The position numbers and the translations under genes were made by a program. From Chlorophyllum brunneum (lineage: Eukaryota > Basidiomycota > Agaricomycetes > Agaricales > Agaricaceae): DNA of 59,189 nucleotides. The notes beneath the pieces are model-generated. The model worked only from the letters and a program-made list of their open reading frames with translations, was not told where the DNA came from and searched no databases. The stretch is from contig OY756152.1 of NCBI GenBank assembly GCA_963576785.1, positions 1 through 59,189 on the forward strand, in the 5' to 3' direction. Positions 302 to 59,189 of the stretch are shown one piece after another. Every line of letters begins with the position of its first letter. Positions within the stretch are counted from its first letter, which is position 1.

Positions 302-587
<286 letters not shown>

Positions 588-962
588 TTTATATTTTTAT
601 ATTTTTATAAAATATTTATAAGGATGAAGTAGTGTACGCTACAGCAATATAAATTTTATTAGTTAAAGATAAGCTAACATCCGGCAAAGTTATAAACTTC
701 GCCGGATGTTAGCTTCGCTAGCCTAAACAAAGGTTACCAGCCAAAGGCAAACTTTGTTAGGCTAGCTATTGTTAATTTAACTGCCCCCTTAATTATAATA
801 TAATATAATAGTCGTGTAGTAACATTGTCACTAACTTCTAACGAAGTTTGCCTAAGTGTGTCACAAAGTTAGCGTACGCTACTAACTAAGTTAATAGCTT
901 GGCTACTACTATCCGTTATTGTATATTATAAAGCGATAGTAATTAAGTTATAAAATTAATTC
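588..962. other. spacer atp9-trnL: hairpin elements, C-run motif
   Basis: No gene. An AT-rich stretch is followed by GCGAAG/TAACG hairpin elements and the C run CCCCCTT at 784-790, 197 nt past atp9 on its strand. Confidence 0.7.
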
Positions 963-1044
963 ACGAGTATGCCGAAATAGGTAGCCGGGTGGGTTTTAGG
1001 TACTCATAATTTTTATTGTAAGAGTTCAAGTCTCTTTACTCGTA
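963..1044 (+). tRNA. trnL: tRNA-Leu(TAG)
   Basis: Acceptor ACGAGTA/TACTCGT with discriminator A, anticodon loop TTTAGGT (TAG, CUN codons), and a long variable arm as expected for leucine. Confidence 0.92.
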
Positions 1045-1584
1045 ATTTATAGCTACTAGTAGTAGCATTCGCTACGCAAGGCTATACTTGCACAGCAGTA
1101 AGTAGCTACTAACTTCGTTATTCTAGCGAAGCTGGTCTAGCTACTATAAAGTAAAGGAGAATGCATATTTAATAAATCAATAAATTAAAGAAATGTAGCC
1201 TAACAAACTTATAGCGCCCTCTAGCGTATGCTAATCTGGTTTAGCAACGCTAACTTCGTTATAGCATACGCTATAGTAGCGTATGCTAGGAAGCCGAAAT
1301 AGCGTAGCCTTGCAAAGCTACTATAACTTAAATATATTCTTAATAATGTGACTATTACTAGCCGAGTAACGAAGTTAGCCTTCGCTAGTAAAGATAAAAG
1401 CCCAGTAGCGAAGTTAGCTTATTACTAACGAAGTTAGGTGCCAATATTCGAGTCGATATTAGCTAACTGTAGTTTAATAGCTAATAGTAGCTACGCTAGC
1501 TACGCTATTATAGTTACCTTCGGTATCTAGAAGCCACTACTAGTAGCTACGCTAGGCTGCGTTAGTGCGCTATACTAGGCTTAA
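1045..1584. repeat. spacer packed with hairpin elements
   Basis: No gene. Tandem mini-hairpins such as TAACGAAGTTA, TAGCGTATGCTA, GTAGCATTCGCTAC and TAGCTACGCTA fill most of the interval. Confidence 0.7.
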
Positions 1585-1658
1585 ACATCTTTAGCTTAAT
1601 TGGTTATAGCATGTGCCTTCGAAGCATACAAGTATTGGTTCGAATCCAATAAGATGTC
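1585..1658 (+). tRNA. trnR: tRNA-Arg(TCG)
   Basis: Acceptor ACATCTT/AAGATGT, anticodon loop CTTCGAA (TCG, CGN codons), T arm ATTGG/CCAAT. The discriminator base is C as folded. Confidence 0.9.
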
Positions 1659-1882
1659 AATTAAAATAGAGCTTAATAATAACTTAAGGTGGAAGTAGCT
1701 ACGCTATCCTAGTTACCGTAGTAGCAAAGCTACTACACTGTAACGAAGTTACTACCACTCCTAGGGATTATAGCACTAGCAATACCACCCTGACGAAGTT
1801 AGTAGCGAATGTTAGCAATCGCTACTAACGGCTACCGCTACTACTATTTTATAAATTTACTTTTCAAAATTTTTCTACGAAA

Positions 1883-1954
1883 GGAAGCAGAACTCGAGTG
1901 GTGGAGTGTCCCCCTTTTAAGGGGAAAGTTCTGGTTCGAGCCCAGGTGTTTCCA
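1883..1954 (+). tRNA. trnK: tRNA-Lys(TTT)
   Basis: Acceptor GGAAGCA/TGTTTCC, anticodon stem TCCCC/GGGGA and loop CTTTTAA (TTT). An open frame across this gene is spurious. Confidence 0.93.
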
Positions 1955-2772
1955 ACTTTTTGTTTTTTGTTTTTTGAGTCGAATTCAACCTTAGTAATAT
2001 AATTACTACTAACCTAACAAAGTTATTAGCTACTAACCTAGTTTGGCTAGGGCTAAATAAAATAGTAACGAGGTTAGCGAACGCTACTCTAAAAGAGAAT
2101 TAGGATATCTAAAACTGAATTACAAAATAGAATAGTAGTATAATAGTTACCGAAGGTTACTATAACGATGTTAGCAATCGCTAGTAACTAGTTTAGCTTG
2201 GCTAGCGTACGTTATATTAGTATACTATTTAAAGGTAATTAGGAAAATCAGTAGTATGTATAAGGTATAATATTTATACTTGTAGTAAGTATAAGAGTAG
2301 TAATAGAAGTAGTACGAATGCTAACTTATAGTTACCAAAGGTTACTACACTACTACTAGCGAAGCTAGTACTAGCATTCGCTAGTAGTGCGATATACTGT
2401 GCTATAGCGTAAGCTATAACTAAGTTACTATAAAAATAGTAGGAAAAATTTAATATATTTATAATATAAAAAAAAAAATGAGAAAGTTTTAGTTATTAAA
2501 TATTTTATAGCTCTAAATAATAATAAAATTATTAGCCTGCGCTAATTTAGTGATTTATTTAACTAAATTAATGTCGGGCTGGTGCAAAATGAAATTATTT
2601 AATAATAATATTAGTAAGCTAATACCTATACCTATGCTTAAAAATATTTAGATAGATCAGTTTTAGCAAAGCTATTCTAACTTAAGATTATATATAAATT
2701 AATCAAGGTGAAAATTAAAACAAAATCTGAGTTATAGGTACGCCTAATTCCCCTTTACTGTCACGTACGCTA
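1955..2772. repeat. long spacer, T-rich tract and hairpin elements
   Basis: No gene. It opens with a run of TTTTTTG units, continues with many TAGC/GCTA and TAAC/GTTA hairpins, and ends in unique AT-rich DNA (about 2440-2760). Confidence 0.65.
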
Positions 2773-2845
2773 GCTGATATAGTTTAAAAGGTTAAAACAT
2801 GCCATTCATGACGGTAAAAAAAAGGTTCAATTCCTTTTTTCAGCT
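2773..2845 (+). tRNA. trnM: tRNA-Met(CAT), copy 1
   Basis: Acceptor GCTGATA/TTTCAGC with one T-T mismatch and anticodon loop TTCATGA (CAT). One of three CAT genes. Which one is the initiator cannot be settled from this fold. Confidence 0.85.
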
Positions 2846-3016
2846 TATTTCCTATAAAACATTTATATCTTGGATCTGGTAATCAGCAACGTGAAGTTTA
2901 GTAATAGCGAACGCTACTACGTATAGTATACGCTACCAAAAGGTACTAGCCTATTTGGCTGCTAGCTTCGTATATTGTTAGCAAATTTATAAAAACTCTT
3001 TTTTTTGAATAAAAGA

Positions 3017-3091
3017 GGTAAAATTAGTTTAATTGGTTAAAATGACGTCTTGTGGCGACGATGTTCAGAGTTCGAGTCTCTGATTTTACCC
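3017..3091 (+). tRNA. trnH: tRNA-His(GTG)
   Basis: Acceptor GGTAAAA/TTTTACC, anticodon loop TTGTGGC (GTG), T arm CAGAG/CTCTG with one unpaired A before the acceptor strand. Confidence 0.9.
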
Positions 3092-3422
3092 TAATAAAAC
3101 TTCAATCCTTTAAGGTCTAGCCTAATGGCCCTTCAATAGTATAATTTAACTCAGCTGTATCACAGGTAGGAGTAAAAGGGGCTTACCGTGTCAGGCTACT
3201 TATAGCTACGCTACTAAGTTCGGGTACTAGTATAGCAACGCTACTAACAGTGTAATGAAGTTTGGCCACTATAACTTCGTTAGGCTACTAGTAGTAGGCT
3301 AGCGAAGTAACTATTGTTAGTAGCAAATGCTATACGTAGCCTTAGTTATATCGTTATTAGCTGCGCTATTCTAACGAAGTTAGGTTACTATAATTTACTT
3401 TTTTCTTAGTAATTATTAAATA
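3092..3422. repeat. spacer of hairpin elements
   Basis: No gene. Mini-hairpins of the dispersed family (TAACTTCGTTA, TAGCAACGCTA, TAACGAAGTTA) occupy most of it. Confidence 0.65.
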
Positions 3423-3494
3423 AGCGAAATAGTGTAAAGGTTTGCACAACAGTCTCATGATCTGTTAGATTGGGTTCAATTCCTAATTTCGCTA
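3423..3494 (+). tRNA. trnM: tRNA-Met(CAT), copy 2
   Basis: Acceptor AGCGAAA/TTTCGCT with discriminator A, D arm GTG..CAC, anticodon loop CTCATGA (CAT). Confidence 0.9.
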
Positions 3495-3530
3495 AATCTA
3501 GTCAAGATTTTCGGCAGTAAATTTTATTCA

Positions 3531-3602
3531 GGTCCTTTAGTATAGTGGTTCGTACTACTCCCCTTCAAGGAGTCAGGATCAGTTCAAATCTGATAAGGAT
3601 CA
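3531..3602 (+). tRNA. trnE: tRNA-Glu(TTC)
   Basis: Acceptor GGTCCTT/AAGGATC with one G-T pair, anticodon stem ACTCC/GGAGT, loop CCTTCAA (TTC). Confidence 0.92.
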
Positions 3603-3617
3603 GTGTAAGGTACGCTA

Positions 3618-3700
3618 GGAATAATTGTCATAGGTAAGACTAAGCAATTGCTAATTGTTAGGGTTAACAACTCTTGGACGTTCGACTCGTCCTTATTCCG
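3618..3700 (+). tRNA. trnS: tRNA-Ser(GCT)
   Basis: Acceptor GGAATAA/TTATTCC, anticodon stem AGCAA/TTGTT, loop TTGCTAA (GCT, AGY codons), long variable arm, discriminator G. Confidence 0.9.
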
Positions 3701-4031
3701 TATTAAAATATCACTAAAATTTTAGATGTTAAGGTAAATATAACTTCTGGTTTAGCTACGCTAGTAACTAAAGGTTAGCTTTAGTAGCATTAAATTTATA
3801 TTTTCAATTTAAATTTTTAATAACAAATATAGTTCATAATCCTGAATATTTAGCTTTTTATATATAAATTATAGAGCTTAAAACAAACTATTAACGGTCT
3901 AATAAGGGCAATATAACTTATTAGACTAGTAGCGAATGCTAGCCTACGATAGAATGGCGCAGCTAGTTACTTCGTCTACAATAGTAACCGGAGTAGTAGC
4001 GGGTGCTATAGCTTAGTGTTTTGCGTCAGTA

Positions 4032-4716
4032 TTTAACGAAAGTTTTATTTATGTTAGATTGTAACAAATTAATAATAAAAAAAGCAAATTTAACTAAAAG
4101 TAGTTAAGTTTAAAAATTATTATTTAAATGCAAGCCTAGCTTATTTATAGTAACCGAGGGTTGGTATAGCTTAAGTTAACTAAGTTATAGTAGCATTCGT
4201 TACTAACTGTGTTAGGCCTCTACAAATTTTAAGCAAAGGCTACTAGTACAAATTAAGTAAAATTTATAGCCCTAGTAGTAACGAAGTTAGCTACTACTTG
4301 TAATACCGGACATTACTAGTAGCCGTTATTAGCTAATGTTTATACAGTTTGTAGCCTAGTATAGCGAAGGCTAAACCGAACTATTACTAGCCTAGTATAG
4401 CAACGCTAGTAGTAACTTTGTTACAACTATTCTAGTTACCCTTTGCGATTACTAGATGTTATAGCGCACGCTAGCATTCGCTACTAGCCTTAGGCTAGAA
4501 TAGTATAGCGTACGCTATTCGGTAGCAATAGCTACTACAGCTATTTGTTAGTAGCTACAAGCCTAAGGCTAGAAATAGCAAAAAGTAAAATAAAGAAAAG
4601 CTCATAATTTAAAGGTAGAATAATTTCTTGATGAGGAATCTGTAGAAGTTCAAATCTTCTTGGGCTTAAAATTCCAAAATTAAATTAGTTATAGTGTTTA
4701 TTGTTAATATTAGTAG
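4032..4716 (+). repeat. 685-bp inverted repeat, arm A
   Basis: This arm is the reverse complement of 13010-13694. Both arms are exactly 685 nt, and every stretch I compared, including both ends, matched. It carries tRNA-Ile and several hairpin elements. The pair encloses cob, cox2, nad3, nad2 and ORF remnants. Recombination between arms would invert that 8.3-kb segment. Confidence 0.93.
4598..4668 (+). tRNA. trnI: tRNA-Ile(GAT), copy in arm A
   Basis: Acceptor AAGCTCA/TGGGCTT, anticodon stem ATTTC/GGAAT, loop TTGATGA (GAT), T arm AGAAG/CTTCT. An identical gene lies in the other repeat arm. Confidence 0.92.
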
Positions 4717-5673
4717 TAAAAGCGTTAGTAGCTATACTAGGCAACTAGAAGTTATAATGTATACTATTTATATTTTAGTGTAAATTAATAAATATAAACT
4801 AGCGGTATCCTTTTCAAAGGATAAAGTATTCCCTTTAGCTAATTAAAGGACTAACTAGTAACCTCTGGTTAGCAGAATAAATAAGGCTACATTGGCAAAG
4901 GCGTAGTAACTGCGTTAGAACAATACTAATATCCGGTAGATAGCAGCCTTAGCTTTAGTTACTAACTTAATTACTACAGCTTTAGCTGGCTTGAGTTAAC
5001 ACAAACTGACTAGGCTGCTAAAATTAAATATAACTAATATAAGATATTATATCTTTGGCTTAAAATTAGCGAGTAACAATAAAATTAGAAAAGCTAATAA
5101 ATTTTTATTTTCCAAGATATTAGCGTACTAGCTTCGCTAGGAGTTACTAATTCAATAGAATTAATAACATAGAAAATTTTTATAAATGCAATCTAGCTGA
5201 CGCTATTTTAGTACTTTGTACGCTTACATTGTTATAGCGAACGCTACTAGTAGTAGTAACTAGCGAATGCTAGTTACTACCTTCGGTTTAGCTACGCTAA
5301 CTTCGGTTACTACAACTTATTTGTTTAGTTTATAAATTATAATAAATCAAGAGTAGAATAGCGTACGCTATTCGGTAGCATTCGCTACTACTAAAGCTTA
5401 AGCTTTACTTCAGGAGGTTAAACTTATAAGTCTGTAATAGCAAAGGGTAACCAGAAGTTAGCTTATTTTAAGTAAACTACAAAAAATTTTATTAAATTTT
5501 TATAGCCTACTAAGATTAATAAATTATTAAACCTGCTAGAAGCAAATATAAAGCCTCTTCATTTAAATGTTGTAATATTAGGCTAATATATAATTATATT
5601 AAAACACAATAAAATTAGATTAGCTTAAAAATTAAGCAGTAACAAATGAGATAAAAAAAAATTAATATAAAAA
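4717..5673. repeat. spacer before cob
   Basis: No gene found. Hairpin elements (TAACTGCGTTA, TAGCGTACGCTA, GTAGCATTCGCTAC) alternate with unique AT-rich DNA. The last 150 nt before cob are AT-rich leader. Confidence 0.65.
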
Positions 5674-6837
5674 ATGAGAATATTAAAAACCCATGTACTT
5701 CTTAGATTTGTTAATTCATATATAGTAGATTCACCTCAACCGGCTAATATAAGTTATTTATGGAATTTTGGTTCATTATTAGCTACATGTTTAGTTATAC
5801 AAATATTAACAGGAGCTTTTTTAGCTATGCATTATACACCTAGTGTAGATTTTGCATTTAATAGTGTAGAACATATTATGAGAGATGTTAATAATGGTTG
5901 GTTAATTAGATATACACATGCTAATGTAGCTTCATTTTTCTTTATTTTTGTTTATATGCACATAGGTAGAGGATTATACTATAGTTCATACAAATCACCT
6001 AGAGTTTTAGTTTGGTCAATAGGAGTAATTATTTTAATTCTTATGATGGCTATAGCTTTCTTAGGTTATGTTTTACCTTACGGTCAAATGTCTCTATGGG
6101 GTGCTACAGTTATTACAAATCTATTATCTGCAATACCAGTATTTGGACATGATATAGTAGAGTTAATCTGGGGAGGATTTAGCGTAGGAAATGCTACATT
6201 AAATAGATTCTTCTCTTTACATTATTTATTACCTTTCTTATTAGCTGCTTTAGCTGTAGCTCACTTAATTGCATTACATGAACACGGTTCAGGTAATCCA
6301 AATGGAGTTACTTCTAGTGGAGATAGATACGCAATGCATCCTTACTTTATCTTTAAAGATTTAGTTACTATATTTGCATTCTTCTTAGCTTTATCTATAA
6401 TGGTGTTCTTCTACCCTAATGTTTTAGGACATTCTGATAATTATATACCCGCTGACCCTATGGTAACTCCTGCTTCTATTGTACCTGAATGGTACTTATT
6501 ACCTTTCTATGCTATATTGAGATCTATACCTAATAAATTATTAGGAGTAGTAGCTATGTTTGGATCATTATTAATTTTATTAATATTACCTATAACAGAT
6601 TTATCTAGAATTAGAGGAAATCAATTTAGACCTGCTATGAAATTTGCATTCTGGTTCTTTGTTGTAGACTTTATTATATTATTATGGATTGGAGCTCAAC
6701 ACCCTGAAACTCCTTATTTAGAAATAGGTCAAGTATCTACTGCTTTATACTTTGCGTGGTTCTTAATTATAGTACCAGTAATAGGTATAGCTGAAAATAC
6801 TTTATTAGATGTGGCTACAAGTAGAAGCCAACGTTAG
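5674..6837 (+). CDS. cob: cytochrome b (complex III)
   Basis: This 387-aa subunit carries both b hemes and the quinol sites of the bc1 complex in the inner membrane. The axial histidines pair as H82/H183 and H96/H197 with the usual 13-residue spacing, and the PEWY quinol-oxidation motif is at 271-274. The N terminus ([12 protein letters not shown]) is typical of fungi. There are no introns, whereas many fungi have several here. The TAG stop runs straight into a hairpin element (CAGCGTTCTAGCTTCGCTAG). A CCCCCTT run lies 118 nt downstream at 6955-6961. The gene lies inside the segment bounded by the 685-bp inverted repeats. Confidence 0.99.
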
Positions 6838-7667
6838 CAGCGTTCTAGCTTCGCTAGAAGTTAGTATAGTAACGGAGCTAACTAACATTCGCTACTACTA
6901 GTTAGCTACGCTAGAATAGCTTTGCTGCAACAGCTAAAGCTTAATTAGCTTTATCCCCCTTCAATATTTTGGGCCTAGCATTCGCTAGGACAACTACAAT
7001 TAATTAATGTAAATTATTATTAATTAAATATAACAATTTAAAATTTAAACTACTTAAAAGTGGTATACTAGCGAAGCTAGCAAAGGGTAACTACTAGCGA
7101 TTGCTAGTATACTAGGCTAGTAACGAAGTTAGCGTACGCTATTAGCTAGTAATATCTAGCAATCTAACAAAATTACTACTAGATTAGCTTCGCTATAAAT
7201 GCGCTACAAGTTCTAGCAGCGCTACCCTGTGATTGCTTGGGTTAACAGCAAGAAAGTAATAAGATGAGTCTTAAGATGTCTAGCAGTTGATCTGCTCTGC
7301 GTTTAAGTTTTAGATTAAAGTTAATTAATAGTTGCCCAACCTAGTATAGCGTAAGCTACAGTAACATACACTAGAAACAGCGTTAGTACGCTAGCAACGA
7401 AGTTAGCGTACGCTACTAACTTCGTTATAGCTTATGCTAGTAGCGATTGCTACTGTACTAGTTACTAGCTAAAGCTACTAGTAGCCTTGGCCAGTACTAT
7501 ATTGTTTACGTCCGCTAGGCTAGTGTAGCGCAGCTAGAACTTTAATAGCGTACACTAACTTCGTTACTAGCCTTTATCTACGCTAGGTTACTAAGGTGCA
7601 ATATTGCCTAAGCTTAAACTATTTATCTAAAACCAGTAAATTAAGATATAAAGATATTAAATTTTAA
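6838..7667. repeat. spacer cob-cox2
   Basis: No gene. It holds the C run at 6955-6961, dense hairpin elements, and a non-repetitive, less AT-rich island at about 7205-7330 with self-complementary CAGCAG/CTGCTC-like pieces. I cannot assign that island. Confidence 0.6.
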
Positions 7668-8438
7668 ATGATAAATTTAGCTAGTTTAACTAATTTAATT
7701 TTAACTATATACAATGATGCTGCTCAACCTTGGCAATTAGGTTTCCAAGATAGTGCTGCTCCAGGTTACACAGGTATTGTTACATTACACAATACTATAG
7801 GTTTCTATTTAATAGTAATAAGTATTACCGTATTCTGGGCCTTATTTACTCTAATGTATTACTACAATTCAAGTAAAAACCCTATTGCACATAAATATTT
7901 AACACATGGTACAGTATTAGAATTAATTTGGACTATCACACCCGCTTTAATCTTAATTGCTATTGCTTTCCCTTCATTTAGATTATTATATTTAATGGAT
8001 GAAGTAATATCTCCTACATTAACAATTAAAGTTGTAGGTCATCAATGGTATTGGTCATATGAATATTCTGATTTTATTACTGATACAGGAGAATCTATCG
8101 ATTTTGATTCTTATATGATACCTGAATCAGATTTAGAGTTAGGACAATTTAGACTATTAGATGTAGATAATAAATTAATTGTACCTGTAGATTGCCACAT
8201 TAGATTAATTATTACAGGTGCTGACGTAATACACTGTTTCTCTGTTCCTTCTTTAGGTTTAAAATTAGATGCTGTACCAGGTAGATTAAATCAAGTTTCT
8301 TTCTTAGCTGAAAGAACTGGTACATTCTACGGTCAATGCTCTGAAATCTGCGGAGTATGGCACGGATTTATGCCTATAGTAGTTGAAGCAGTATCTTCAC
8401 CTGATTTCTTAGTTTGGGTAGATTCAGCTTCTGAATAG
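7668..8438 (+). CDS. cox2: cytochrome c oxidase subunit 2
   Basis: This 256-aa subunit receives electrons from cytochrome c through the binuclear CuA centre on the intermembrane-space side. Two N-terminal membrane helices (about 44-66 and 84-106) precede the cupredoxin domain. The CuA ligands are H189, C224, E226, C228, H232 and M235 ([12 protein letters not shown]). The aromatic patch QWYWSYEY at 126-133 is the electron entry region. The start is the ATG of MINLASL. A CCCCCTT run lies at 8557-8563. No introns are seen. Confidence 0.99.
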
Positions 8439-8994
8439 TTAAATATAACTAAAATTAGTAGCTTAAGGCTAAATAAAATTTTAGATATTTTAGATGAAAA
8501 GCTGCTTTAGTTAACTTCGGTAACTATAAGTTTGTTTATTTGATCTAATTAATTTACCCCCTTCTTAGTTTGAATTTTATGTAATTAGATTGCTTCGATT
8601 ACACTGCTACTTATTGTTTTGTTATTTCTGGCATGTATGATATTTTTGTTTAGATTAAATTTTAAAAACAAAAAACAAACAAAAAACAATTAAAAATAAA
8701 TTAATAATAAATTAATAATAAATAATATTTTAAGTTATATTAAATATAGCGAAGCTACTCTAGTAGTAACAACCGGTAATTAGAGCTAGTGTAGTTAGCA
8801 ATCACTAGCATTCGCTAGTAACTTTGCTAGTAGCCTAGTAACGATGTTAGCGTACGCTACAGAAATAAAAATTTTAATTTAAGGGAGGGGGGTAACTTCG
8901 TTACTATGTTAGCTTATTTAAATAAAGTAGCGCACTAATATACTAGTAGTGGCCCTCCTGTTGCTATTAGCTTCTAACGAAGTTAGGCTGTTAC
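8439..8994. repeat. convergent spacer cox2/nad3
   Basis: The spacer between tail-to-tail cox2 (+) and nad3 (-). It holds a plus-strand C run (8557-8563) for cox2 and a minus-strand CCCCCCTCCCTT (8883-8892) for nad3, with ACAAAAA-type repeats and hairpin elements between them. Confidence 0.7.
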
Positions 8995-9375
8995 TTAATT
9001 AGATTTATTATTTGCACTAGTATCAAAATTAGTTAGTGCTATAGCACCTGATCCTATTTCTAATACAAACCCTATTGTTAAAACAATAAAGAAAATGATA
9101 GCAATAGAAAATCCGAAAGTAGATACCTGGTAAAGAGTTACAGCTACAGGGAATAAAAGTAAAATTTCTAAATCAAAAATTAAGAATAACATAGCTACTA
9201 TATAAAAGTGAATTTGGAAAGTTGATCTAGTTTGACCTACAATAGCTTGGAAACCACATTCATAAGCAGACACTTTTGCTTCATCAGGTCTATGCACCGC
9301 AAGTAAAACATTTAAAGCTAATAAAGCTAAAGCTAGAATAGGTACTAAAATAAATAAAAATAATAAATTATTCAT
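8995..9375 (-). CDS. nad3: NADH dehydrogenase subunit 3
   Basis: This 126-aa membrane subunit of complex I has three predicted helices and the conserved loop YECGF (near residue 40) that takes part in the quinone/active-deactive region. The ATG at 9375 overlaps the nad2 TAA by one base (TAATG), the standard nad2-nad3 arrangement in fungi. An upstream in-frame TTG (9381) lies inside nad2 and is less likely. It is co-transcribed with nad2. Confidence 0.96.
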   Translation of the reverse strand: MNNLLFLFILVPILALALLALNVLLAVHRPDEAKVSAYECGFQAIVGQTRSTFQIHFYIVAMLFLIFDLEILLLFPVAVTLYQVSTFGFSIAIIFFIVLTIGFVLEIGSGAIALTNFDTSANNKSN

Positions 9376-12027: not shown

Positions 12028-12130
12028 TTATTTAATGTGTTATTTAGTTTAGCACTTTTAGTATATATATTATTTATTGTTACCTGTATTATTTGTATTT
12101 GCGCTAGGCTTTTTATTATTCTGATCATTA

Positions 12131-49111: not shown

Positions 49112-49184
49112 AATTCTCTTTTGGACTCGAACCAAAATCCGCACTTTAGAAGAATGCTGTTTTAACCAGTTGAACTAAGAGAAC
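49112..49184 (-). tRNA. trnR: tRNA-Arg(TCT)
   Basis: Acceptor GTTCTCT/AGAGAAT, anticodon stem GCATT/AGTGC, loop CTTCTAA (TCT, AGR codons). Confidence 0.92.
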
Positions 49185-49659
49185 TATAAAAATATTAGCT
49201 CTATCTTCCTCCGCTGTAGTGGCGAATGCTACTATAACGAAGTTAGCGTACGCTAGTGGCTTATAACGAAGTTAGCGAAGGTTAGCAACCGCTACTCGAA
49301 TAGCGAACTAGTGCAGTTACTACAACTCAAAAATCTAAAGTTTCAGCTGGTTAGAAGAATAGTAGTAGTGAATGCTATAACGAAGTTAGTAGTAACAAAG
49401 TTACAACTAGCCTTGCAAAGCTATTATAACTTCGTTAGATGCTAGGCTACTATAGCATTCGCTAGTAACTAGCGTACGCTAGCCTAGGCTTCTACAATCC
49501 GAGACCGCAAATAATCTGCTAGCTGGATTCCACCGTAAGGCTCGACTAACTTCTAGTAGCGAATGCTATGGTAGTAACTTCGTTAGAATAGCGCAACTAT
49601 AACAAAGTTATAATATACTAGGCTAGATTAGCGTAAGCTAGAAAATTTGAATATAAAAA
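49185..49659. repeat. spacer trnR-trnD
   Basis: No gene. Nearly continuous hairpin elements. Confidence 0.65.
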
Positions 49660-49732
49660 CGAGCCCTTCCAGATTTGAACTGAAACCGCTCTAATTGACA
49701 ATTAGATACTCTACCTTTTAAGCTAAGGGCCC
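49660..49732 (-). tRNA. trnD: tRNA-Asp(GTC)
   Basis: Acceptor GGGCCCT/AGGGCTC, anticodon stem TCTAA/TTAGA, loop TTGTCAA (GTC), discriminator G. Confidence 0.93.
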
Positions 49733-49884
49733 TTTTAAGTTGGAATAGCCTACGCTAGTATAGCGTAGGCTATTCGCTACTAGATGTTAGTAGTAGCGTA
49801 CACTAGTAGCAAAGCTATACTAGTAGCGAACTTACGCAGTTACTACCACTAGTCGCCTATGCTGCAACTTAATTTATACAGCAC

Positions 49885-49956
49885 CAAGAGTGAGGTGGCT
49901 CGAACACCTTCCAGTGATTTTGGAGATCACGATACTACCGATTATACTACACTCTT
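49885..49956 (-). tRNA. trnW: tRNA-Trp(CCA)
   Basis: Acceptor AAGAGTG/CACTCTT, anticodon stem GTGAT/ATCAC, loop CTCCAAA giving CCA. This is the only Trp tRNA found. A CCA anticodon reads UGG but not normally UGA, whereas fungi that use UGA as Trp usually carry TCA. Confidence 0.93.
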
Positions 49957-50093
49957 TACCTAAATTATTAGCTTAAATTCAGCAGCAGTAACTTCGTTAG
50001 AATAGCGCAGCTATAGAGCCCTAGCTTCGCCACATAAGCGTAGTTATAGCATCTGTAATAGTAGCCTAGCGCAGCTAGTTACTACTAATTTAA

Positions 50094-50166
50094 CTGAGTT
50101 GACCGGATTCGAACTGGTATAAGCCATTACCAAAAAATGGTGTTTTTCCAATTAAACTACAACTCA
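50094..50166 (-). tRNA. trnQ: tRNA-Gln(TTG)
   Basis: Acceptor TGAGTTG/CAACTCA, anticodon stem CCATT/AATGG, loop TTTTGGT (TTG). Followed by an ACAAAAA short tandem repeat at about 50165-50195. Confidence 0.93.
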
Positions 50167-50415
50167 AAAAAACAAAAAACAAAAAACAAAAAAGTAACAA
50201 TAATAGTAGTAGCGAATGCTAGTAGTAGTTACTAGCGAATGCTAGTAACTATAGCATCCGCTAGTAACTAGAATAGTAACGCAATTATAGCATACGCTAG
50301 TAACTAGAATAGTATAGTAGCATTCTAGCTTCGCTAGAATGCTACTATAACTTTGTTAACTTAAGCTAACTTCGTTACAACTATAACTATATTAGGCGAG
50401 TTAAAATAAGTTATT

Positions 50416-50487
50416 TGCCGAAAACTGGACTTGAACCAATATTAAAATCTTACAAGGAGTCCGTTTTACCAATTAAACTATCTCGGC
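50416..50487 (-). tRNA. trnT: tRNA-Thr(TGT)
   Basis: Acceptor GCCGAGA/TTTCGGC, anticodon loop CTTGTAA (TGT). The anticodon stem has one C-T mismatch. Confidence 0.88.
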
Positions 50488-50680
50488 TAGCTTCGCCACT
50501 AATTATTTGCAGGTTTTGCTTTTTATATCGTTTTTATAAACATAACTAACTAAAATTTAAGCTACAATAAAGGTATAGCCTCGTTGTAACGCAGTTAGTA
50601 GTGAATGCCAGAGGCCTAACTCCGTAAGGCTAGTAACTAGAATAGCGCAGCTATATTAGGTGCTACTACTAATAAATTAT

Positions 50681-50757
50681 AAAGGCCTTAAGGGGGTTCG
50701 AACCCCTGTAAAAAGTATTAACAGTACCTCGCTTAAACCACTCAGCCATAAGACCTT
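50681..50757 (-). tRNA. trnN: tRNA-Asn(GTT)
   Basis: Acceptor AAGGTCT/AGGCCTT, anticodon loop CTGTTAA (GTT), T arm AGGGG/CCCCT around TTCGAAC. Confidence 0.9.
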
Positions 50758-50784
50758 AAATCTTTATTTCCTAACGCCTATTTT

Positions 50785-50859
50785 TGGGGGAAGCGAGACT
50801 CGAACTCGCAAATCCTTACTCCCAGGGTAAGTCCCTTACCAAATTAGGTCTATTCCCCC
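50785..50859 (-). tRNA. trnP: tRNA-Pro(TGG)
   Basis: Acceptor GGGGGAA/TTCCCCC, anticodon stem CTTAC/GTAAG, loop CCTGGGA (TGG). Confidence 0.94.
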
Positions 50860-51547
50860 TACTGCCGTAGGCTGCTTAAATCAAACTAACGAAGTTATAG
50901 CGTACTAACGCAGTTACTAGCGTAAGTCACAAAGTTATAGCGAACGCTACTAGTAGTAGCAAAGCTACTACGGTAACTAGAATAGCTACGCTAGCTTTCG
51001 CTACTATAACGGAACTACCCTCACCCGCCTTAAACTGACACGGGTCTAGCTAAACTACTATGATATTTTGTTAATCCTCAACATTCAGTTTTTTTATAAA
51101 TTAGTACTGCTAAACTAAATACTTTACAGTACTTTCATTTGCAGCCTATCTAGAAATGTTCTATTTCTCAATTAAGGTTTATAAATAAACCATTTAGTAT
51201 CTAGGGGTTAGATTCTTGCTTGATAGACATTCAGCACTTATCTATTATGTTTGTGGCTACCCAACTATGCGTTCATTATTTTTTGTAGCTACTAGAAGTT
51301 ATAGCATACGCCACTAACTTCGTTACTATAGCAATTAATAATTAAAAACAATTGGTACACTAGAGAAACACAGCCTATTGGTCCTTTCGTACTGGAAGGT
51401 CTGCCCCTTTTTACTAATTGCCCCTCCAGAAGATAGGGACCATACTGACTCACGTCGTATTAAACCCAACTCACGTACCCTTTTAATCGGCGAACAGCCG
51501 AACCCTTCCAAGCTTCTTCCCCCGGAGGATAGGATGAGTCGACATCG

Positions 51548-53241
51548 CAATTATTACTAATAACTCACTACAAATTAAGTAATACTCTTAACTTTTCAGC
51601 TAAGTTTAGACTATATCTTCAACCAGCATAAGAATACAATTATGTAGCTTCTGGTTGTTGGCGTGTAGTCGTTGAAGGGTTAAGATTTTTTTAACAGTTG
51701 CTTTAACCTAAAATTTTAACTTCCCTGCTGATTGTCCAATCTTTAAAATTTTTACTTGATTTTTCTAGTAGTAGCGAACACTATAATAGTTGTAGTTGTA
51801 ATAGTTGTAGTAACCTTCGGTAACTATTCTAACGAAGTTACTATAATTACAACACTACTAACTGCGTTAGAACTAGCCTTTGGCTATAACTGCGTGACTA
51901 TTACTACAGCTACTACTAGTTATAGCCAAAGGCTATGGCTACTAGCGTACACTAACTTCGTTACACCCTCGATTGAAAAGGGGGGTAGAGATAAGAGTAC
52001 CGGCAATCAAAGATTAACCATAGGTTACCCTTCAGTTATAATAGGGGCTAGCAGTTACTAGGCCTAGAAAATTTAAGTATTTAAAGCTCTAAGGATGTTC
52101 CAGCATATAGCCAACTTCTAATCTAATATTACTATTAAAAATCCCCGTTGTTTGAACTTAAATCTATGTCTTTATATGAAGTAACTGATGCAGAATTTTC
52201 ACCCGTTATGGTTTATGGAGTTTCATTAATTTTATAACAAAGTTAGCATTGAATAGTGCATATGTTCTTTCAACAAAGGTTTAGTTACCGAAGGTTACTA
52301 CACCATCTAATGATTCTTTATTTATGTAAATTCTTTCATATTTTGAATCATTTTTGCCTTTTTTATTGTGAATTGAAGAACTAATATTAAATTTATCTAA
52401 TAAGGCTTTTCTAAGTAAACTAATCTCTGAGTTATAAAAACTATATAGCTACGCTACACAATGTCTAGTAACCTTCGGTAGCATTCGCTACTCCTCTTTT
52501 TACTTGTAGTTACCGTTGTAGCAAAGCTACTACCATCGTCCATAATCCAAAAAGCTAAACTTATCGGAGTTAGATTAGTTACTAGCGAATGCTATATTTT
52601 TTTTTTACCTTCATTATTTAGGAACAAGTCAGCAAAAGGTTTAGTTACCGAAGGTAACTACTAGCATTCGCTACTAGAGAATGAGTTCTAAAATATAAAG
52701 ATTCATTAATTTTGTAACGCAGTTAGTAGTAACCTTCGGTAACTAACATCTGCTCTTGTATAAGTTTTAAGTTCTTCTAATTCGAAACCAATTTCTAAAG
52801 TCAAATTATATAGATAAGTAATATACTCTAGCTGCACTATTCTTTTTTGATTGCTCAAAAGTAATGTATGCTTTATCTAATCCGGTTTTACCTATATGAG
52901 CATCACCTAATAAAACTCCAACTAACATCTCTTTGTATGCTTTATTCATCCTTAGAATAAGCTTTATGCGATAGCGTCTAACATTATCTATTAAAGGTAG
53001 TAGCTTCTAGTATAGCTGCGCTATTCTAATGGAGTTATAGCTACTAACAGCGTTATAGCCAAAGGCTAGTAACCCTTAGTTTTAGCTTTCGGCTACTACT
53101 AGATAACCAGTTCGATCTTTTACATCAGATATAAACTTGATCAAATATATTTATATTAGATGGTGAATAACTCACACACTATCTTTGAAACAATTTAATT
53201 TTTGTGAGATACTTCCTTAATGATTTAAGTTATATTTTTCA
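51548..53241 (-). mobile_element. rnl group I intron 2 (near E. coli 2500)
   Basis: It splits GGCACCT/CGATGTC in domain V. The P7-P3 motif AGACTATATC (51608-51617) and P4 motif TTCCCTGCTGATTG (about 51720) lie near the 3' end. The 5' junction is uncertain by one base. Confidence 0.88.
52150..52990 (-). pseudogene. shattered LAGLIDADG endonuclease in rnl intron 2
   Basis: Pieces of a LAGLIDADG_2-type enzyme remain: MLVGVLLGDAHIGKTGLDK (ATG at 52928) with the first motif, a YITYLYNLTLEIGFELEE stretch, LAFWIMDDG with the second motif (about 52545), and a C-terminal part around KSKYERIYINKE-like sequence. Between them are many hairpin elements (GTTACCGAAGGTTAC, GTAGCGAATGCTAC, GTAGCTTTGCTAC), most breaking the frame. 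A minus-strand CTACCCCCCTTTT lies at 51978-51988. The intron must now rely on other factors for mobility. Confidence 0.8.
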
Positions 53242-54077
53242 AGGTGCCAAACAGCCGAGACAATGTGTACTCTCGTCGGCTATCAGCCTGTTATCCCTAG
53301 CGTAACTTTTATCAATTGATCCTCGTCTATCCCATTTTATAGCGAGGGGTCACTATGCCCTACTTACGTATCTGTGCGACTTTTGAGTCTTTCAGTTAAG
53401 CATGCTTACCGCCATTGAACTCTGCGCAACCCTTCACTGGTTGATTGATCTCCATTCAATTTCTAGCTATACCTTATAAAGTTTATGATTATTTTATAAC
53501 TAAAATTAAAATCGCTCTAGTAACTAGAATAGTTGTAACAATTTTACTACTAGTAGCTTACGCTATAACTTTGATAACTTTGTTACTAACGCAGTTACTA
53601 TAAGTTAGCCTAATCTTGAGCTATTTTATTTGTGAGTTTTACTTAAAAACATAAAAATATGAAAAAGTAAAATACTTTTTTAAAAATATTTGGTTGTACT
53701 TTGCTACTTTATTAAAGACGACCGCCCCAGTCAAACTGCCAATTAGTCAACTATCCCTTTCGTTAGAAGGTAAACACAAACCCAACCCTAATTGTAAGGT
53801 TCCCAATATTTGTCCTAGATTCAGTTGCAACCAAAGGTAGCTTCGCTACTAGTGGAGGCTATTCGACTTCCCTATTCTCTCTTAACTAAGATTGTTCTAG
53901 ATTCGTATGATAACTAATTACAGTAAAGCTGCATAGGGTCTTCCCGTCCCCCTGGAGGTAACGCGCATCTGCACGCGTAATTCAATTTCACTGAGCAAGT
54001 TGTAGAGACAGTGAGACCATCGTTACATTATTGATACCGGACCACATTTAATGGCCAACTGATTTTGCTACCTTAGG

Positions 54078-54818
54078 CTAAAAGCTACTCTACATATTTC
54101 TATGCAGTTTGGACTATATCATCAAATATTAATATATTTGCTCAATTATCTAGTCTCTGAGGGCTATAGCTTAGTTATAGCTGCGCTATTCTAATATTAA
54201 CAACCTAACGAAGTTATCGGCAGCCACTAAGCTTAAGTATATTAGCTTAATTTAAGGGGTAGCTATAAATATAAGCTTAATTTACAGGCCAGCAGCTGAA
54301 CTATTCAACTAAAGTTAATTCTTCTTTATTGAAGAAAGAATTCTTATCCTTAATAATTCCAAGTATATAAAATATAGTAACTTTGTTACTACCTTTCCCT
54401 TGAAGCTTATAGGATAGTTTAACCATTTCAATTAGATCTTCTTTGTTTTAGCGCAGCTATCCGAAGATAACATTACAATTTCCTTAAAGATAGAATATTC
54501 TTCTTTTTTACAACTAAATGGTTTAGCTACGCTACATAAGTTTCTAAAAAGGGTATTACATATTTAATTATTTGCTTATAACCTTTCAAAGTATAAACAT
54601 AAACATCAGGAGATCCAGTTTAGTTACCGAATAGTAACTTTGTTACTAACGAATAGCGTACGCTATACTATATTCCCTGCTGATTGTCCATTGTAGTATC
54701 TTTAAGATTTTCACTTAATGTGTAGCAAAGTTATAGCGAACGCTACTAAGTACTTAAAGCTTTAGGATGTTCCAGCATATCATCGAGTTTATTGAGGACC
54801 CTATAGGTTTTTAATCAA
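54078..54818 (-). mobile_element. rnl group I intron 1 (I-CeuI-like site, about 1923)
   Basis: Joining TAACTATGAGGAT to CCTAAGGTAGC restores the 23S sequence at the same length as E. coli (TAACTATAACGGT/CCTAAGG). Core GGACTATATC at 54111-54120, P4 TTCCCTGCTGATTG at about 54675. At 741 nt it is short for an ORF-bearing intron. Confidence 0.9.
54300..54620 (-). pseudogene. LAGLIDADG C-terminal relic in rnl intron 1
   Basis: Minus-strand pieces such as GSPDVYVYTLKGYKQIIKYV, then IFKEIVML and DLIEMVKLSYKLQGKG, look like the C-terminal half of a LAGLIDADG protein. Hairpin elements (TAGCGTAGCTA, TAGCTGCGCTA, GTAACAAAGTTAC) break it. No catalytic motif remains. Confidence 0.55.
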
Positions 54819-57264
54819 ATCCTCATAGTTAAGACCGCTATTAACCAGATTTTCGATCAGTCACTTGTATTAATGACCTTTCTTATATTAATGGCATCGG
54901 GCAAATTTCACACAGTATACTATCATATTAATGATTGCACTGTGTTGTGTTTTTAGTAAACAGTCGGGGCCTCCGATTCTGTGCCACCGCTCTAATTTAC
55001 AGCCGAGGCTGAAAATTTATGCGGTACCTCTTATCGTCTAACTTAGGAGGTGAACTTGCCGAGTTCCTTAACAACTTTTAGCTCTACGCCTTAGTATACT
55101 CTACCTACGAACCTGTGTCGGTTTAGGGTACGGTAGTATCTATAAAATATTAATTTCCTGGTCTAGCGAAGCTAGAAGCTAGCTAGACTTTCTATTTTAT
55201 ACTCATCAGTCACAGCTTTAGCTATTATCCTTAGAGGCCGCATTAAATCAAAGTGGATTAACCTTTCTTTTTTTGAAACCCTTTCGTATTCGGCGAGAAG
55301 TATTATAACTTCTTTTTACGTTACTCATGTCAGCATTATCTCTTCAGTAACCTAAAATACAATGAAACACTGTACTATCATTAGTTTGACTGAATGTTCT
55401 ACTACCTAGATTAACTTTATTATAATAAAATATTAAAGATAACCAACACGATATCGGTTGATTGTTTAAGACCCGTTAAATTTTCGGCGCTAGTATCTAT
55501 TTTAGTAGCCTTGTTTAGCTACGCTAACGAAGTTACTAGACTGCTGATGCGTTGTTACAAACGTTCATTATAAGTAGCGACTGCCAGGCTCACTTAACAG
55601 CTGTATACGATAATCATACGTCCTTAATTTCACTTAACAATCATTCGGGACCTTGATCAGTGTTCTCGGCTGTTTCCGTCTTGACTGCCCAACTTAGCTT
55701 GAGCAGTCTGAATATCTACCATCAATTTATGTAATTCCGAGATTCGCTTCCAAAGGTAAGATTTTCTAGGTCCCCGCAACCTAAACGCATAAAAATTAAT
55801 AGCCTAGTAACTAAAATAGCTACGCTATAGTTACTTTGTTACTATATCTTTTTACTTGTTGGGAATTGCCTTGCTGTACCTCCATAAATCTATATAGGTA
55901 GATGTCATACTTAAATATGTTTCGTAGAAAACCAGCTAGCACCAGGTCAGATTGGCATTTCACCGCTTACTTAAACTCTTCGGAGAATTATGCAACATTC
56001 ACCCGTTCGATCCATTATAATCTGGTCTAAGTAAGATCACCTGGCTTCGGGTCTAATAGTAGTAACTTATCCATCATTGTTTAGCGGCCTAACAAAGTTA
56101 GGCTACTAATACTATATCCAGTCGCTTTCGCTAGGGCTTTTAACCTTGCTACTACTATTAAGTTGCTGACCCATTATGCAAAAGGTACGCCGTCATTCTG
56201 TTGTAAGAATTCCGACTGCTTATAGAGTTACTAATTCATGATCTATTTCACCAATTCTAGTTTTGCTAATATTTTAATTATTATTAGCAAAGCTATTAAA
56301 TTTTAGGTATACTACTCGCTTTTCAAACTTTTCCTTCACAGTACTTTTTCACTATCGCTAAATTTACAATACTTAGCCTTAGAGGATGGTTCCCCTGTTT
56401 TCCGACAAGTTATCTCTCATCGTACTTATTTTAGTAGTAACTAGCATTCGCTAGTAACTACTTCGGTTACTAATAACTAGCTTCTCCACTAGATTAGCTT
56501 CTCCACTAGTTATTATATTATGATATAAACCTACAGGACTTTTACTTTTTACCTTTTTTAGTAATAGCATTCTAACTTTGTTACAATATAATTATTGTTG
56601 TAGTTACTAGCATTCGCTAGTTACTACCATCGGTTATAACGAAGTTAGCGTACGCTACTATAATTTTTCAATTTATATTTTAATATATTAGCAGGCTAGT
56701 CCGATTTCACTCACCATTACTTTCGGAGTCTCGGTTGATTTCCTTTCCTTTCCCTACTGAAATGTTTTACTTCAGGAAGTAATTAATTAATAAGGTTTAC
56801 CTTAGGATCGCTTAAATGTATTAAATACCTTAATACTTAAGATTATTTTAAGCTTTTGGGTTGTACCCTCCTTATATGTATAAATTTGCCTTAGTTTTCC
56901 TTAATAACCCCTTTAATTAACTTTAAATTAAATTTAAAATGATGAGACTATATTAACATCGATACTTTTATGGTATCCGAATATAAACTGTTTTTAAATA
57001 TAATGCTAGCGTACGCTAACTTCGTTACCATAACAAAGTAAGTAACAAAGTTACTACGCTAGTCTAGCGAAGCTAGAATGGCGCAGCTAGTAGCTACTAC
57101 TCCCTTATACACCCTTGTAGTAGCAAAGCTATTTTTAAATTTAAAAAATCCCCAAAACGTAAAAAAGGCCTGTCCTAGAGTAACTTCGTTAGAATAGCCC
57201 AGCTATTCTAGTTAAGCGAAATAAAACCCCAAAAACAGCTTCTCTATCTACTTTGATATTTAAA

Positions 57265-57328
57265 CTAAAAGAGTATTATGTAAAATAATATGTTAGACAC
57301 TATCAATTAACTTATTTTAAAACAAATA
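57265..57328 (+). promoter_or_regulatory. captured atp9 leader before orf253
   Basis: 64 nt matching 302-365 at 63 of 64 positions, ending at the ATG. The similarity drops sharply upstream of CTAAAAGAG. Confidence 0.9.
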
Positions 57329-58090
57329 ATGTTCGAAACTTTTAAAAGCAAAATAAATAGGAGCTTAAAAATTATTACAACGGGAGCTACTCTATTAACC
57401 TACAAATCCTGGTTTGAAGCTAAAGAAGAAAGTAACAAATTAAAAAATCAAATGTTAGATATAAAAAATGAAATAAGTAATCTAAGCGAAACAGTAAATA
57501 AGGATGTTATAGATAATTCTATTAAAAACAAAATAATAGAAGAAATTCAACCGTTGAAAGAATCTTTTAGCAAAATAGAAATCTTAGAGCAAAAGGTTGA
57601 TTCAATTATAGAACAAACTCAAATGTTTAAATCTAAACCTGATTCAGCTATTATGACAGAGATTCAATCCTCTAAAGAAGAAATAGGCAAAATACTTTCT
57701 AAAACTATTACTAAATTAGAAGAACTAGAAAAATTTTTAGAAGAAAATGAGTGGACTAAAAAACTATCTGATGATAATTTTCTATTTAATCTAATCAAAG
57801 AATATAAAGACTATTTATCTACTTTATCTGTTGAAGAATTATGTATTTTAATGAATCTATTAGTATGTGTTTTTATTTTAACTTGTTTAATAACTATAAT
57901 ATTTGCTTTCTATGGAAACTATTTTATAAACAAATTATCTTTAGAAACAAAATACCCTAAAATAAGTGGGTTTATTAAATGGAGAATAAAATTTCAACAC
58001 TACTATATTATAGTAAATTCTATTTACATAGTAGTAGCTTTAGGCCTAATCAGTTATGTAAATTTTGTGACTTTATTTGTTATTAGTTAA
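57329..58090 (+). CDS. orf253, coiled-coil protein with two C-terminal helices
   Basis: An intact 253-aa hypothetical protein. Residues 1-12 lie in DNA that still resembles atp9 (AAAATAAATAGGAGCT against AAAATATATAGGAGCT). Residues 30-150 are strongly charged and predicted coiled coil (NKLKNQMLDIKNEISNLSE, LEQKVDSIIEQTQ, KLEELEKFLEENE). Residues about 170-195 and 222-250 are membrane helices joined by LETKYPKISGFIKWRIKF. The C-terminal layout matches the fragment at 11671-12027. No enzyme motif is present. A TACCCCCTT run follows 22 nt after the stop. It is probably expressed, given the captured leader and intact frame. Its role is unknown, perhaps as a membrane-anchored plasmid-type protein. 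Confidence 0.8.
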   Translation: MFETFKSKINRSLKIITTGATLLTYKSWFEAKEESNKLKNQMLDIKNEISNLSETVNKDVIDNSIKNKIIEEIQPLKESFSKIEILEQKVDSIIEQTQMFKSKPDSAIMTEIQSSKEEIGKILSKTITKLEELEKFLEENEWTKKLSDDNFLFNLIKEYKDYLSTLSVEELCILMNLLVCVFILTCLITIIFAFYGNYFINKLSLETKYPKISGFIKWRIKFQHYYIIVNSIYIVVALGLISYVNFVTLFVIS

Positions 58091-58665
58091 CTAATAAGTA
58101 TGGTTTTATTACCCCCTTAGCGTACGCTAACGAATAGCTACTAACTTCGTTACTCTAATTTAAGCTGAAAAGGGACTAAGTTACACTAACGAATAGTATA
58201 GCGTACGCTATTCGGTAGTAACAAAGTTACTGTGCTAACGTAGTTACTACTGACACACGCTATCATTCGCTACTAATATTAAACAGAGTAACTGCGTTAT
58301 AGTAACGAAGTTAGCGTACGCTATACTAACGAAGTTACTACGCTATTCGTTAGAATGCTAGAAAGCTAAAATTTTATTGTTAGTTCATATTTAAATATAA
58401 AATATGCTGCTCCTAACAGTTATACGTAGGTTTACCGTAAGATCTAAAATTTGCCTTATTTCAAGTAAAACCTAGGATAGCGTACGCTAGAAAATTCAGT
58501 TTTAACAATATCTATTTAGTAATAGTAACCTCCGGTAGCATTCGCTACTAACTTCGTTGTTCTGAGCCAATTTAAATTACACACCTGAAAATTTGTATCT
58601 CTTAATCGTAGTAACTTCGTTAGTCCGCTAGCTTTTAATAGCTAAATCTACTACTAGTTATTGTA

Positions 58666-58706
58666 AAGTAGCGTACGCTTTAACGCTGTTAAAGCGTACG
58701 CTACTT
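58666..58706 (+). repeat. 19-bp perfect hairpin with GCT loop
   Basis: AAGTAGCGTACGCTTTAAC, triloop GCT, then the exact complement. The longest perfect single hairpin I found, built on the TAGCGTACGCT core. Confidence 0.92.
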
Positions 58707-58875
58707 GTAGTAGTAACTTCGTTAGTCCGCTACTGCGGCTACCGCTACTACAGTACGCTATTAGCCTGCGTTACTAGACTAACGAAGTTACTGCCTATAA
58801 AGAATAAAATTTTAATACACTTATTACTAAAAGAAGATTAAGTTTAAAACAAAAATTGTTTTGTGTGTGCATCCG

Positions 58876-58950
58876 CAATAAGAAGCCTTTTGGCTTATTA
58901 TTGTAGCCTGTATCAAATTAAGGCTAATACTTTTATGACTTAATTTGATA
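58876..58950 (+). repeat. pair of adjacent hairpins unlike the dispersed family
   Basis: Hairpin 1: CAATAAGAAGCC, TTTT, GGCTTATTATTG (58876-58903, one mismatch). Hairpin 2: TATCAAATTAAG, 16-nt loop, CTTAATTTGATA (58911-58950, perfect 12 bp). A double-hairpin shape just upstream of trnF on the circle. Confidence 0.8.
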
Positions 58951-59189
58951 ATAGCTTAACGAAGTAGTAGTAACTTTGTTAGTGTGCAAGTAGTGTAAGC
59001 TAACATCGCTACAACTTCCACTTCCAGTAGAACTACAACTACAAGTAACTCTGTTATAGCAAGGATACTATAAACTAACGGAGTTACTATCTTAAGATTG
59101 TTAAATTTAATATTTTTCTAGCGTATTAACTTCGTTAGAAGCGGTCGCTAACTTCGTTAGGCGATCAAGAAAATAAGTAATAAAATGTA

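Follow-up and report, generated by a model that had tools for sequence, protein, structure and literature searches.

The hairpin family

The DNA analysed here, called the window, spans the whole mitochondrial contig (C14, OY756152.1) of Chlorophyllum brunneum, which is 59,189 nucleotides (nt) long and belongs to a 14-contig assembly of 38,908,447 nt. It holds fungal mitochondrial protein genes, the ribosomal RNA (rRNA) genes rns and rnl, group I introns and transfer RNAs (tRNAs), together with a large family of inverted repeats, each 11-12 nt long, with the plan TARC-loop-GYTA. The original prediction had claimed a dense family of modular mini-hairpins and had listed a series of arms. The density is confirmed: the two arm classes TAAC/GTTA and TAGC/GCTA together account for 466 units, to be compared with a mean of 14.5 and a maximum of 25 in 200 shuffles, a density roughly 30-fold that of shuffled sequence, and the commonest unit types occur 286 times, with a shuffle mean of 0.93 and a maximum of 5. 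The listed arms mostly collapse to a single plan, TA-R-C-loop-G-Y-TA, with loops that are mainly GNA or GNAN on one strand, and the arms with a doubled C and 3-nt loops, TAACC and TAGCC, are minor (3 and 8 copies). Position 588, where the family had been said to begin, is not its limit, since units lie upstream as well, e.g., at 92-146.

The size of the excess depends on the length of the loop. In comparison with 30 replicate dinucleotide shuffles in blocks of 500 nt, hairpins with arms of at least 7 nt number 60 against 12.5 when the loop has 3 nt and 36 against 12.2 when it has 4 nt, while there is little or no excess for loops of 5 nt (17 against 9.2) and 6 nt (9 against 9.0). The excess also depends on the identity of the arm. 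In a survey of all 256 four-nt arms only TAGC and TAAC, expected about 9.9 and 6.4 times per loop length, are strongly raised, and the GCTA arm is mildly raised (46 and 16 copies with loops of 3 and 4 nt). When one copy of a 685-nt inverted repeat is masked, 456 units covering 5,106 bases remain. Two longer composites were searched for in the whole assembly: the first is confined to the mitochondrial contig, where it occurs in three places, and the second has 13 copies there and one in the nuclear genome, within a fragment of mitochondrial DNA (mtDNA).

Arms, loops and orientation

The two arm classes differ in the loops that they carry. The weaker arm, TAAC, has almost exclusively 3-nt loops (169 copies against 2 with 4-nt loops), while TAGC accepts three or four (122 and 175 copies). 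With either strand allowed, 202 of the 291 3-nt loops read GNA, a pattern with a background of 10.7% in the window, and 135 of the 177 4-nt loops read GNAB, with a background of 6.9%; control arms that are likewise closed by a C-G pair have GNA in 8 of 41 cases and GNAB in 0 of 44. The main exception is AAA, the second commonest 3-nt loop (48/291).

The stems of units with 3-nt loops co-vary. At stem position 3 the pairs A-T (165) and G-C (121) far outnumber the mismatched combinations A-C (12) and G-T (8), with a Fisher P of about 5e-60, in which the copies count as independent although they are not. Single variants of TAACGAAGTTA are distributed as 26 across eight stem positions against 56 across three loop positions, and those of TAGCGAAGCTA as 9 in the stem against 77 in the loop. 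The commonest unit has sharp TA..TA ends: pairing immediately beyond its arms is below expectation (25 of 105, expected 40), and long arms are rejected for it, while some TAGC units have extra outer pairing, e.g., TAGCGAATGCTA, with 28 pairs against 19.1 at k = 1. Neighbouring units often have a terminal TA in common, so that a gap of -2 is found in 38 of 465 cases and a gap of -1 in none. When units separated by at most 8 nt are clustered, 229 of the 329 clusters are single units. Matches to split units that overlap at palindrome centres number 177, many of them joined units with common letters; there is one clear nested unit, at 50318, and nested counts are not used as a statistic.

Both orientations had been predicted and are found: among 245 oriented units, the GNA loop lies on the plus strand in 115 and on the minus strand in 130. 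This has a bearing on the proposal that the units spread by way of RNA, i.e., that their transcripts are reverse-transcribed and inserted, a route put forward in the relevant parts of PMC2670323 (citing earlier work) for MUSE1 of Podospora and of PMC4478555 for GC42 of yeast. Units do lie in rRNA genes, and also in the cox1 region with its introns, as this route would have it. There is, however, no sense-strand preference, with 102 units against 103 beyond 8.9 kb and 13 against 27 within 1-8.9 kb, and loops of the GNRA type favoured in RNA are rare, 10 of 177 against 135 for GNAB. Furthermore, Pfam matches (E <= 0.001) for 26 of 26 open reading frames (ORFs) of at least 100 amino acids (aa) include no reverse transcriptase, and no group II intron reaches the gathering score in the window, although a nuclear-encoded enzyme could still act. 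Spread through RNA is thus judged unlikely.

Units in genes

Most units, 399 of the 466, lie outside the delimited genes, where the delimitation leaves out atp8, nad4L and individual cox1 exons and counts cox1 as a region. The remainder are found in the cox1 region (22), rnl (23), rns (12), rps3 (5), nad6 (3), nad2 (1) and atp9 (1), the loops in nad2 and atp9 being outside the common types. Units thus occur in rRNA and in protein genes, as predicted. The window also has the relic of an organellar type-B DNA polymerase, with three units in an open frame, 44040-44537, that has no Pfam match of its own. As regards the companion claim, that a set of conserved genes is avoided, ten conserved ORFs (10,392 nt; nad6 and rps3 excluded) are nearly free, with two units, neither of a common type.

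In rns, units coincide with expansions. In the section of its alignment with the bacterial model that covers approximately 41586-42633, and with it seven of the 12 rns units, all seven (five at 41706-41812 and one each at 42259 and 42552) lie inside or border on three stretches that are much longer than their bacterial-model counterparts.

In rps3 the units are read in frame. To exemplify, TAACTTCGTTA gives the peptide NFV, and two joined units give VAHANFV. The closest named relative by rps3 is Macrolepiota fuliginosa (58%). In an alignment with 12 relatives all five units are situated in length-variable stretches, and the closest relative overall (P0002, 63%) has a gap or a shorter stretch at all five sites. 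In Agaricus bisporus the protein is just as short at the NFV site as in the closest relative, and judged from these proteins the simpler reading is therefore that the NFV unit would be a gain in the present lineage. The rps3 proteins of relatives P0003, P0006-P0008 and P0012 have repeated peptides of their own (poly-Ala, QVELA) in length-variable stretches, which may point to further repeat families in sister lineages. In nad6, where Leucoagaricus and Coprinus comatus are among the named relatives, the stretch with two units exceeds that of the closest relative by 5 aa, and the case is weak because several relatives are as long or longer.

The distribution over genes could also reflect function, if the units were RNA or DNA signals under selection, for instance for transcript processing or as nucleoid or replication sites, like the palindromes beside Neurospora tRNA genes. 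The conserved stems and the location of 399 of the 466 units outside genes are what such signals would show. That the copies number in the hundreds, lie in both orientations, enter rRNA expansions and protein genes, and are optional in comparison with nuclear copies makes this reading very improbable.

Presence and absence of units

The nuclear genome carries many fragments of this mtDNA, and 118 matches from 20 nuclear loci were aligned with the window; among nine further small nuclear loci, eight have a match, with no indel above 1 nt. These nuclear copies and the proteins of relatives served for the comparison in place of relatives' mitogenomes. Presence/absence change of units is supported by differences between the mtDNA and its nuclear copies, and units of rps3 stand in stretches that relatives lack or have shorter, so that copies are not fixed in place, as the original prediction had proposed.

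Younger nuclear copies contain 99 mtDNA units, counted per fragment, of which 80 are identical, 16 have letter differences and 3 are gapped. Two of the gapped units represent one site, 1426-1436, and the third falls within a 45-nt gap. At 1426-1436 two overlapping nuclear fragments with different ends miss the same 7 nt, from which follows that a nuclear deletion would need to have occurred twice. Both fragments belong to L039 (G000 C1:1890294-1897585), a nuclear mosaic of 7 kb in which dozens of short pieces of mtDNA, drawn from every part of the mitochondrial genome and mostly 94-100% identical, are assembled; it was perhaps formed in one capture event. The differences between the younger copies and the mtDNA are mainly C-to-T and G-to-A (165/244).

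An old nuclear copy, L043/L077 (G000 C5:3124091-3127007), spans nad4 to cox1 and is broken by about 1 kb that does not align. Here, 8 of 13 units are gapped, with a mean of 1.9 under random gap placement (P = 0.0002), and 6 of the 13 spacer gaps touch a unit, with 1.9 expected at random (P = 0.006).

The filled and empty sites can be compared letter by letter. With slashes around the letters present only in the filled site, the nuclear cases read T/AACTTCG/TTA, TA/GCGTACGC/TA and, if one letter of the nuclear copy is taken as changed, T/AGCGCA/GCTA, and a pair of mitochondrial paralogues reads TA/ACGAA/GTTA. The empty sites retain the outer letters of the unit, and the filled sites add the family centre without duplication. 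Duplication of a TA target was considered and rejected, as the empty sites read T..TTA, T..GCTA and TA..TA instead of a lone TA, and as the largest flank excess is 6 against 3.3 (TAGCGTACGCTA, k = 2). The flanks show no consistent excess of direct repeats at k >= 2; at k = 1 the TAACGAAGTTA class has 52 against 35.4, an excess not counted as duplication.

Two further explanations meet their evidence here. Units could be passengers: ectopic recombination or gene conversion would copy longer tracts of spacer, and the hairpins would travel with them or serve as hot spots of recombination. The window does contain repeats of 40-76 nt with several units and a 685-nt perfect inverted repeat, a unit lies inside 335 of the 363 repeated tracts of at least 24 nt, and 61 to 63 of the 104 TAACGAAGTTA units share at least one 15-nt flank (at least 12 of 15 letters) with another copy, which is partly an effect of neighbouring units; in Podospora, MUSE1 is described at recombination junctions in the part of PMC1864894 that treats it. 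Against this, both flanks are common to one partner in only 2 of the 104 TAACGAAGTTA units and neither is shared in 41, single units make up 229 of the 329 clusters, and unit-related differences in nuclear copies are mostly of unit size (6-22 nt), with the 45-nt gap as exception. Passenger spread is, on balance, an improbable account of the family. The ends of repeated tracts coincide with unit ends (tolerance 3) in 322 of 670 cases, against 105 in shifted controls; this coincidence was dropped as proof of switching, as short tracts are mostly joined units and it is therefore not independent. In the 16 longest tracts, 8 of the 32 ends coincide.

The other explanation is origin in place: fold-back (quasi-palindrome) template switching would complete imperfect palindromes, or make new ones, where they stand, with no dispersal. 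Insertions templated by stem-loops are a known repair outcome, according to part of PMC11292364, and 50313-50349 is a perfect palindrome in the mtDNA whose 3' arm differs in the nuclear copy. This copy (L039 1308-1431) begins inside the palindrome, and its 3' arm is longer by 6 nt that form a further unit-like hairpin, absent from the mtDNA. Yet the letters gained at 1426-1436 include the family loop and its closing pair, which were unavailable at the empty site, and no other arm approaches the counts of TAGC and TAAC, so that origin in place without dispersal is quite improbable.

Table 1. Hairpin units and unit-bearing features of the window
Feature	Position	Strand	Remarks
Whole mitochondrial contig	1..59189		466 TARC-loop-GYTA units: 169 TAAC-n3-GTTA, 122 TAGC-n3-GCTA, 175 TAGC-n4-GCTA
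Chain of five units	92..146		some with common terminal TA
Unit TAACGAAGTTA	1426..1436	+	7 nt absent from two overlapping nuclear fragments, L039 2942-3017 and 6332-6474
Spacer	24102..24173	+	two gaps in paralogue 50210-50270: the 5 nt at the centre of one TAACGAAGTTA unit, and 6 nt from a TACC-GAA-GGTT hairpin
nad6 length-variable stretch SSAINCSGGY	24762..24791	-	two uncommon-loop units
nad4-adjacent spacer and start of cox1 region	28095..29435		old nuclear copy L043/L077: 8/13 units gapped
Unit TAGCGTACGCTA	28316..28327		old nuclear copy: TA-TA, central 8 nt absent
rns expansion segment	41699..41857	-	five units; 159 nt, against 20 in bacterial model
Organellar type-B DNA polymerase relic	44040..45344	+	PF03175 at 45033-45344
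rps3 (VAR1/uS3m), 422 aa	47320..48588	-	five in-frame units at 47523, 47648, 48276, 48447, 48456
Perfect palindrome	50313..50349		17-nt arms around unit TAGCTTCGCTA

A proposed mechanism of spread by template switching

The excess of the units, their co-varying stems and their presence/absence differences would fit a mechanism in which ultra-short, non-coding, invasive hairpins spread within the mitochondrial genome at the DNA level by template switching, an account to which we give about an even chance of being right. Consider a unit in mtDNA that has become single-stranded in replication or repair. It would fold to a compact hairpin, mostly with a C(GNA)G loop, and a stalled or broken 3' end could then jump to another unit by terminal microhomology (T, TA, TTA or GCTA), copy the centre of that unit and return, which would leave one added unit and no target-site duplication. 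Since it is perfect stems with compact loops that would be copied, the stems would remain complementary while the loops drift. Insertions that break conserved genes would be purged, and those in spacers, introns, rRNA expansions and a tolerant protein such as that of rps3 would persist.

Filled and empty pairs that keep the outer letters without duplication are what template switching with short terminal homology predicts. Both the switching and the stability of the hairpin as its driver are what we infer. GNAB is a class of stable DNA tetraloops from in-vitro selection, on which our literature search showed no paper among the matches listed. GNA and GNNA loops form extraordinarily stable DNA mini-hairpins when closed by two or more G-C pairs, and GCGAAGC has a Tm (melting temperature) of 78 C, as stated in part of PMC4686876. 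TAGC units with GNA loops contain the exact core of these published mini-hairpins.

A number of observations weigh against this mechanism or limit its reach. As regards stability, TAAC units contain a single G-C pair, where the published mini-hairpins require two, and the DNA energy model, which is not decisive here, gives GNA loops no bonus and finds no stable fold for isolated TAAC 11-mers. Stem position 3 in the 4-nt class shows little variation and is without significant covariation (2 A-T, 170 G-C, 8 A-C and 16 G-T; P = 0.23). Since AAA is frequent and loop position 1 of the TAAC class is more variable than position 2 (37 against 14), part of the loop bias may come from common descent from a few founders. 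A 3-nt gap between units is as common as the shared TA (37/465) and is left unexplained by the model. As regards the nuclear copies, 7 of the 11 indels of at least 3 nt in the younger ones involve no unit, and 7 of the 13 spacer gaps in the old one touch none; the old copy has also lost five stretches (9-138 nt) of coding nad4, from which follows that some gaps are nuclear deletions and not all are mitochondrial gains. Clear filled/empty pairs number about four, one of them the paralogue pair. Gain and loss would seem unpolarised in the nuclear-copy cases, the outgroups available being for rps3 alone, as protein. Finally, there is no polymerase or nuclease to which the spread of the units has been linked.

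A bolder version of the DNA-level mechanism sees in the units a minimal DNA replicator, in which the trait inherited and selected would be the ability of an 11-nt single strand to fold into a mini-hairpin, C(GNA)G or C(GNAB)G. The rule that connects arm and loop length would then be the fitness landscape of a selfish element, and neither a gene, nor an own enzyme, nor an RNA stage would be needed. This version is speculative and rather unlikely, the more so as TAAC units lack the second G-C pair. The units seem to rank among the shortest known pieces of selfish DNA.

Relation to known elements

The original prediction had likened the family to double-hairpin elements and to yeast GC clusters. 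The likeness in kind stands, in that the units are optional and palindromic and vary more in the loop than in the stem, while the double-hairpin architecture, the length of GC clusters and the target duplication are not found. Mobile mitochondrial double-hairpin elements of Allomyces are said to have been described by Paquin et al. in 2000. They are GC-rich and, going by their name, have two hairpins per element, unlike the units here, which are single in 229 of 329 clusters.

Among the elements treated in the parts of the literature cited here, the one that comes nearest in size and number of copies, left unnamed in the original prediction, is MUSE1 (Koll et al. 1996), an ultra-short Podospora mitochondrial element of about 11 bp with more than 100 dispersed copies (PMC7218506, PMC1864894, PMC2670323). 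Both are ultra-short, dispersed and of high copy number, here with 466 units of 11-12 nt. Compared by description and not by consensus, the present family differs in its two arm classes, loop series, stem covariation, TA joining and units in rps3, and the group II intron reverse transcriptase proposed for MUSE1 has no counterpart among the 26 of 26 ORFs scanned or, at gathering score, among introns of the window.

Other organelle elements share particular traits, as far as the cited portions describe them. The repetitive hairpin-forming elements of sponges (PMC2800124) have a conserved stem and a variable loop, are joined in tandem, are scattered, and insert into nad genes without frameshift; they are of other types ('blue15', 'yellow18'), whereas the present units have 11-12 nt, the GNA/GNAB bias and nuclear fossils. 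The organelle palindromes of Volvox (PMC2670323) have 3-5 nt loops, both orientations, mutual insertion, abundance in spacers and introns and nuclear copies, but average about 50 nt and have TTTA or TAAA loops. Yeast GC clusters and GC42 (PMC4478555) are optional and palindromic, with loops that change more than stems and units that merge; GC42, however, has 42 nt, is GC-rich and has a putative AG target duplication, whereas no such duplication is seen here, and the GC clusters as a group (GC-rich, 30-80 nt, putative duplication) do not include the present units. The GC palindromes of Heterobasidion and the A/T palindromes of Fusarium (PMC10234125, PMC7218506) are likewise short and dispersed or optional in fungal mtDNA, the former being GC-cluster-like and the latter (A)n-(T)n structures, unlike TARC-loop-GYTA units. 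The PstI palindromes of Neurospora are GC-rich and contain a PstI site.

The traits of mitochondrial hairpin elements in the broad sense, i.e., a conserved stem with a variable loop, presence/absence differences and both orientations, are all found here. As judged from its letters, the TARC-loop-GYTA family is probably a novel variant among the ultra-short or hairpin elements of mitochondria and belongs to no named family, and no prior description of it was found in the open-access literature searched, a search outside of which most subscription papers lie.

In the portions of the literature seen here, the route by which organelle hairpins spread, through DNA or RNA and by enzyme or replication error, is unsettled for yeast GC clusters, Volvox and the sponge elements. 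The present family is an unusually clean system for this question: hundreds of copies follow a single grammar, the search for a resident reverse transcriptase gave none, the loops speak for stability as DNA and not as RNA, and there are nuclear fossils. The family further illustrates how a ribosomal protein and the expansion segments of rRNA are lengthened by elements of this kind.

Additional observations

Scans of viral contigs by unit pattern, rps3 and nad4 gave no DNA of relatives. A cox3 scan of genome contigs gave one fungal-like mitochondrial contig filed as Streptomyces, with one atypical-loop TAGC-type match and no TAAC-type match. This contig (L097 1-5787; NZ_BMRP01000034.1, titled Streptomyces albospinus) has a partial fungal-type mitochondrial cox3 with 58% identity in a stretch of 30% GC, and is likely a contamination or a chimera.

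The leader and start region of atp9 (302-395) has two further copies in the window, 57265-57365 and 38970-39065 (88% and 77%), one of which runs into a 253-aa open frame, 57329-58090, with no Pfam or PHROGs match. The 685-nt perfect inverted repeat is situated at 4032-4716 and 13010-13694 and carries tRNA-Ile(GAU) twice, and the 100% identity of its copies suggests conversion or flip-flop recombination.

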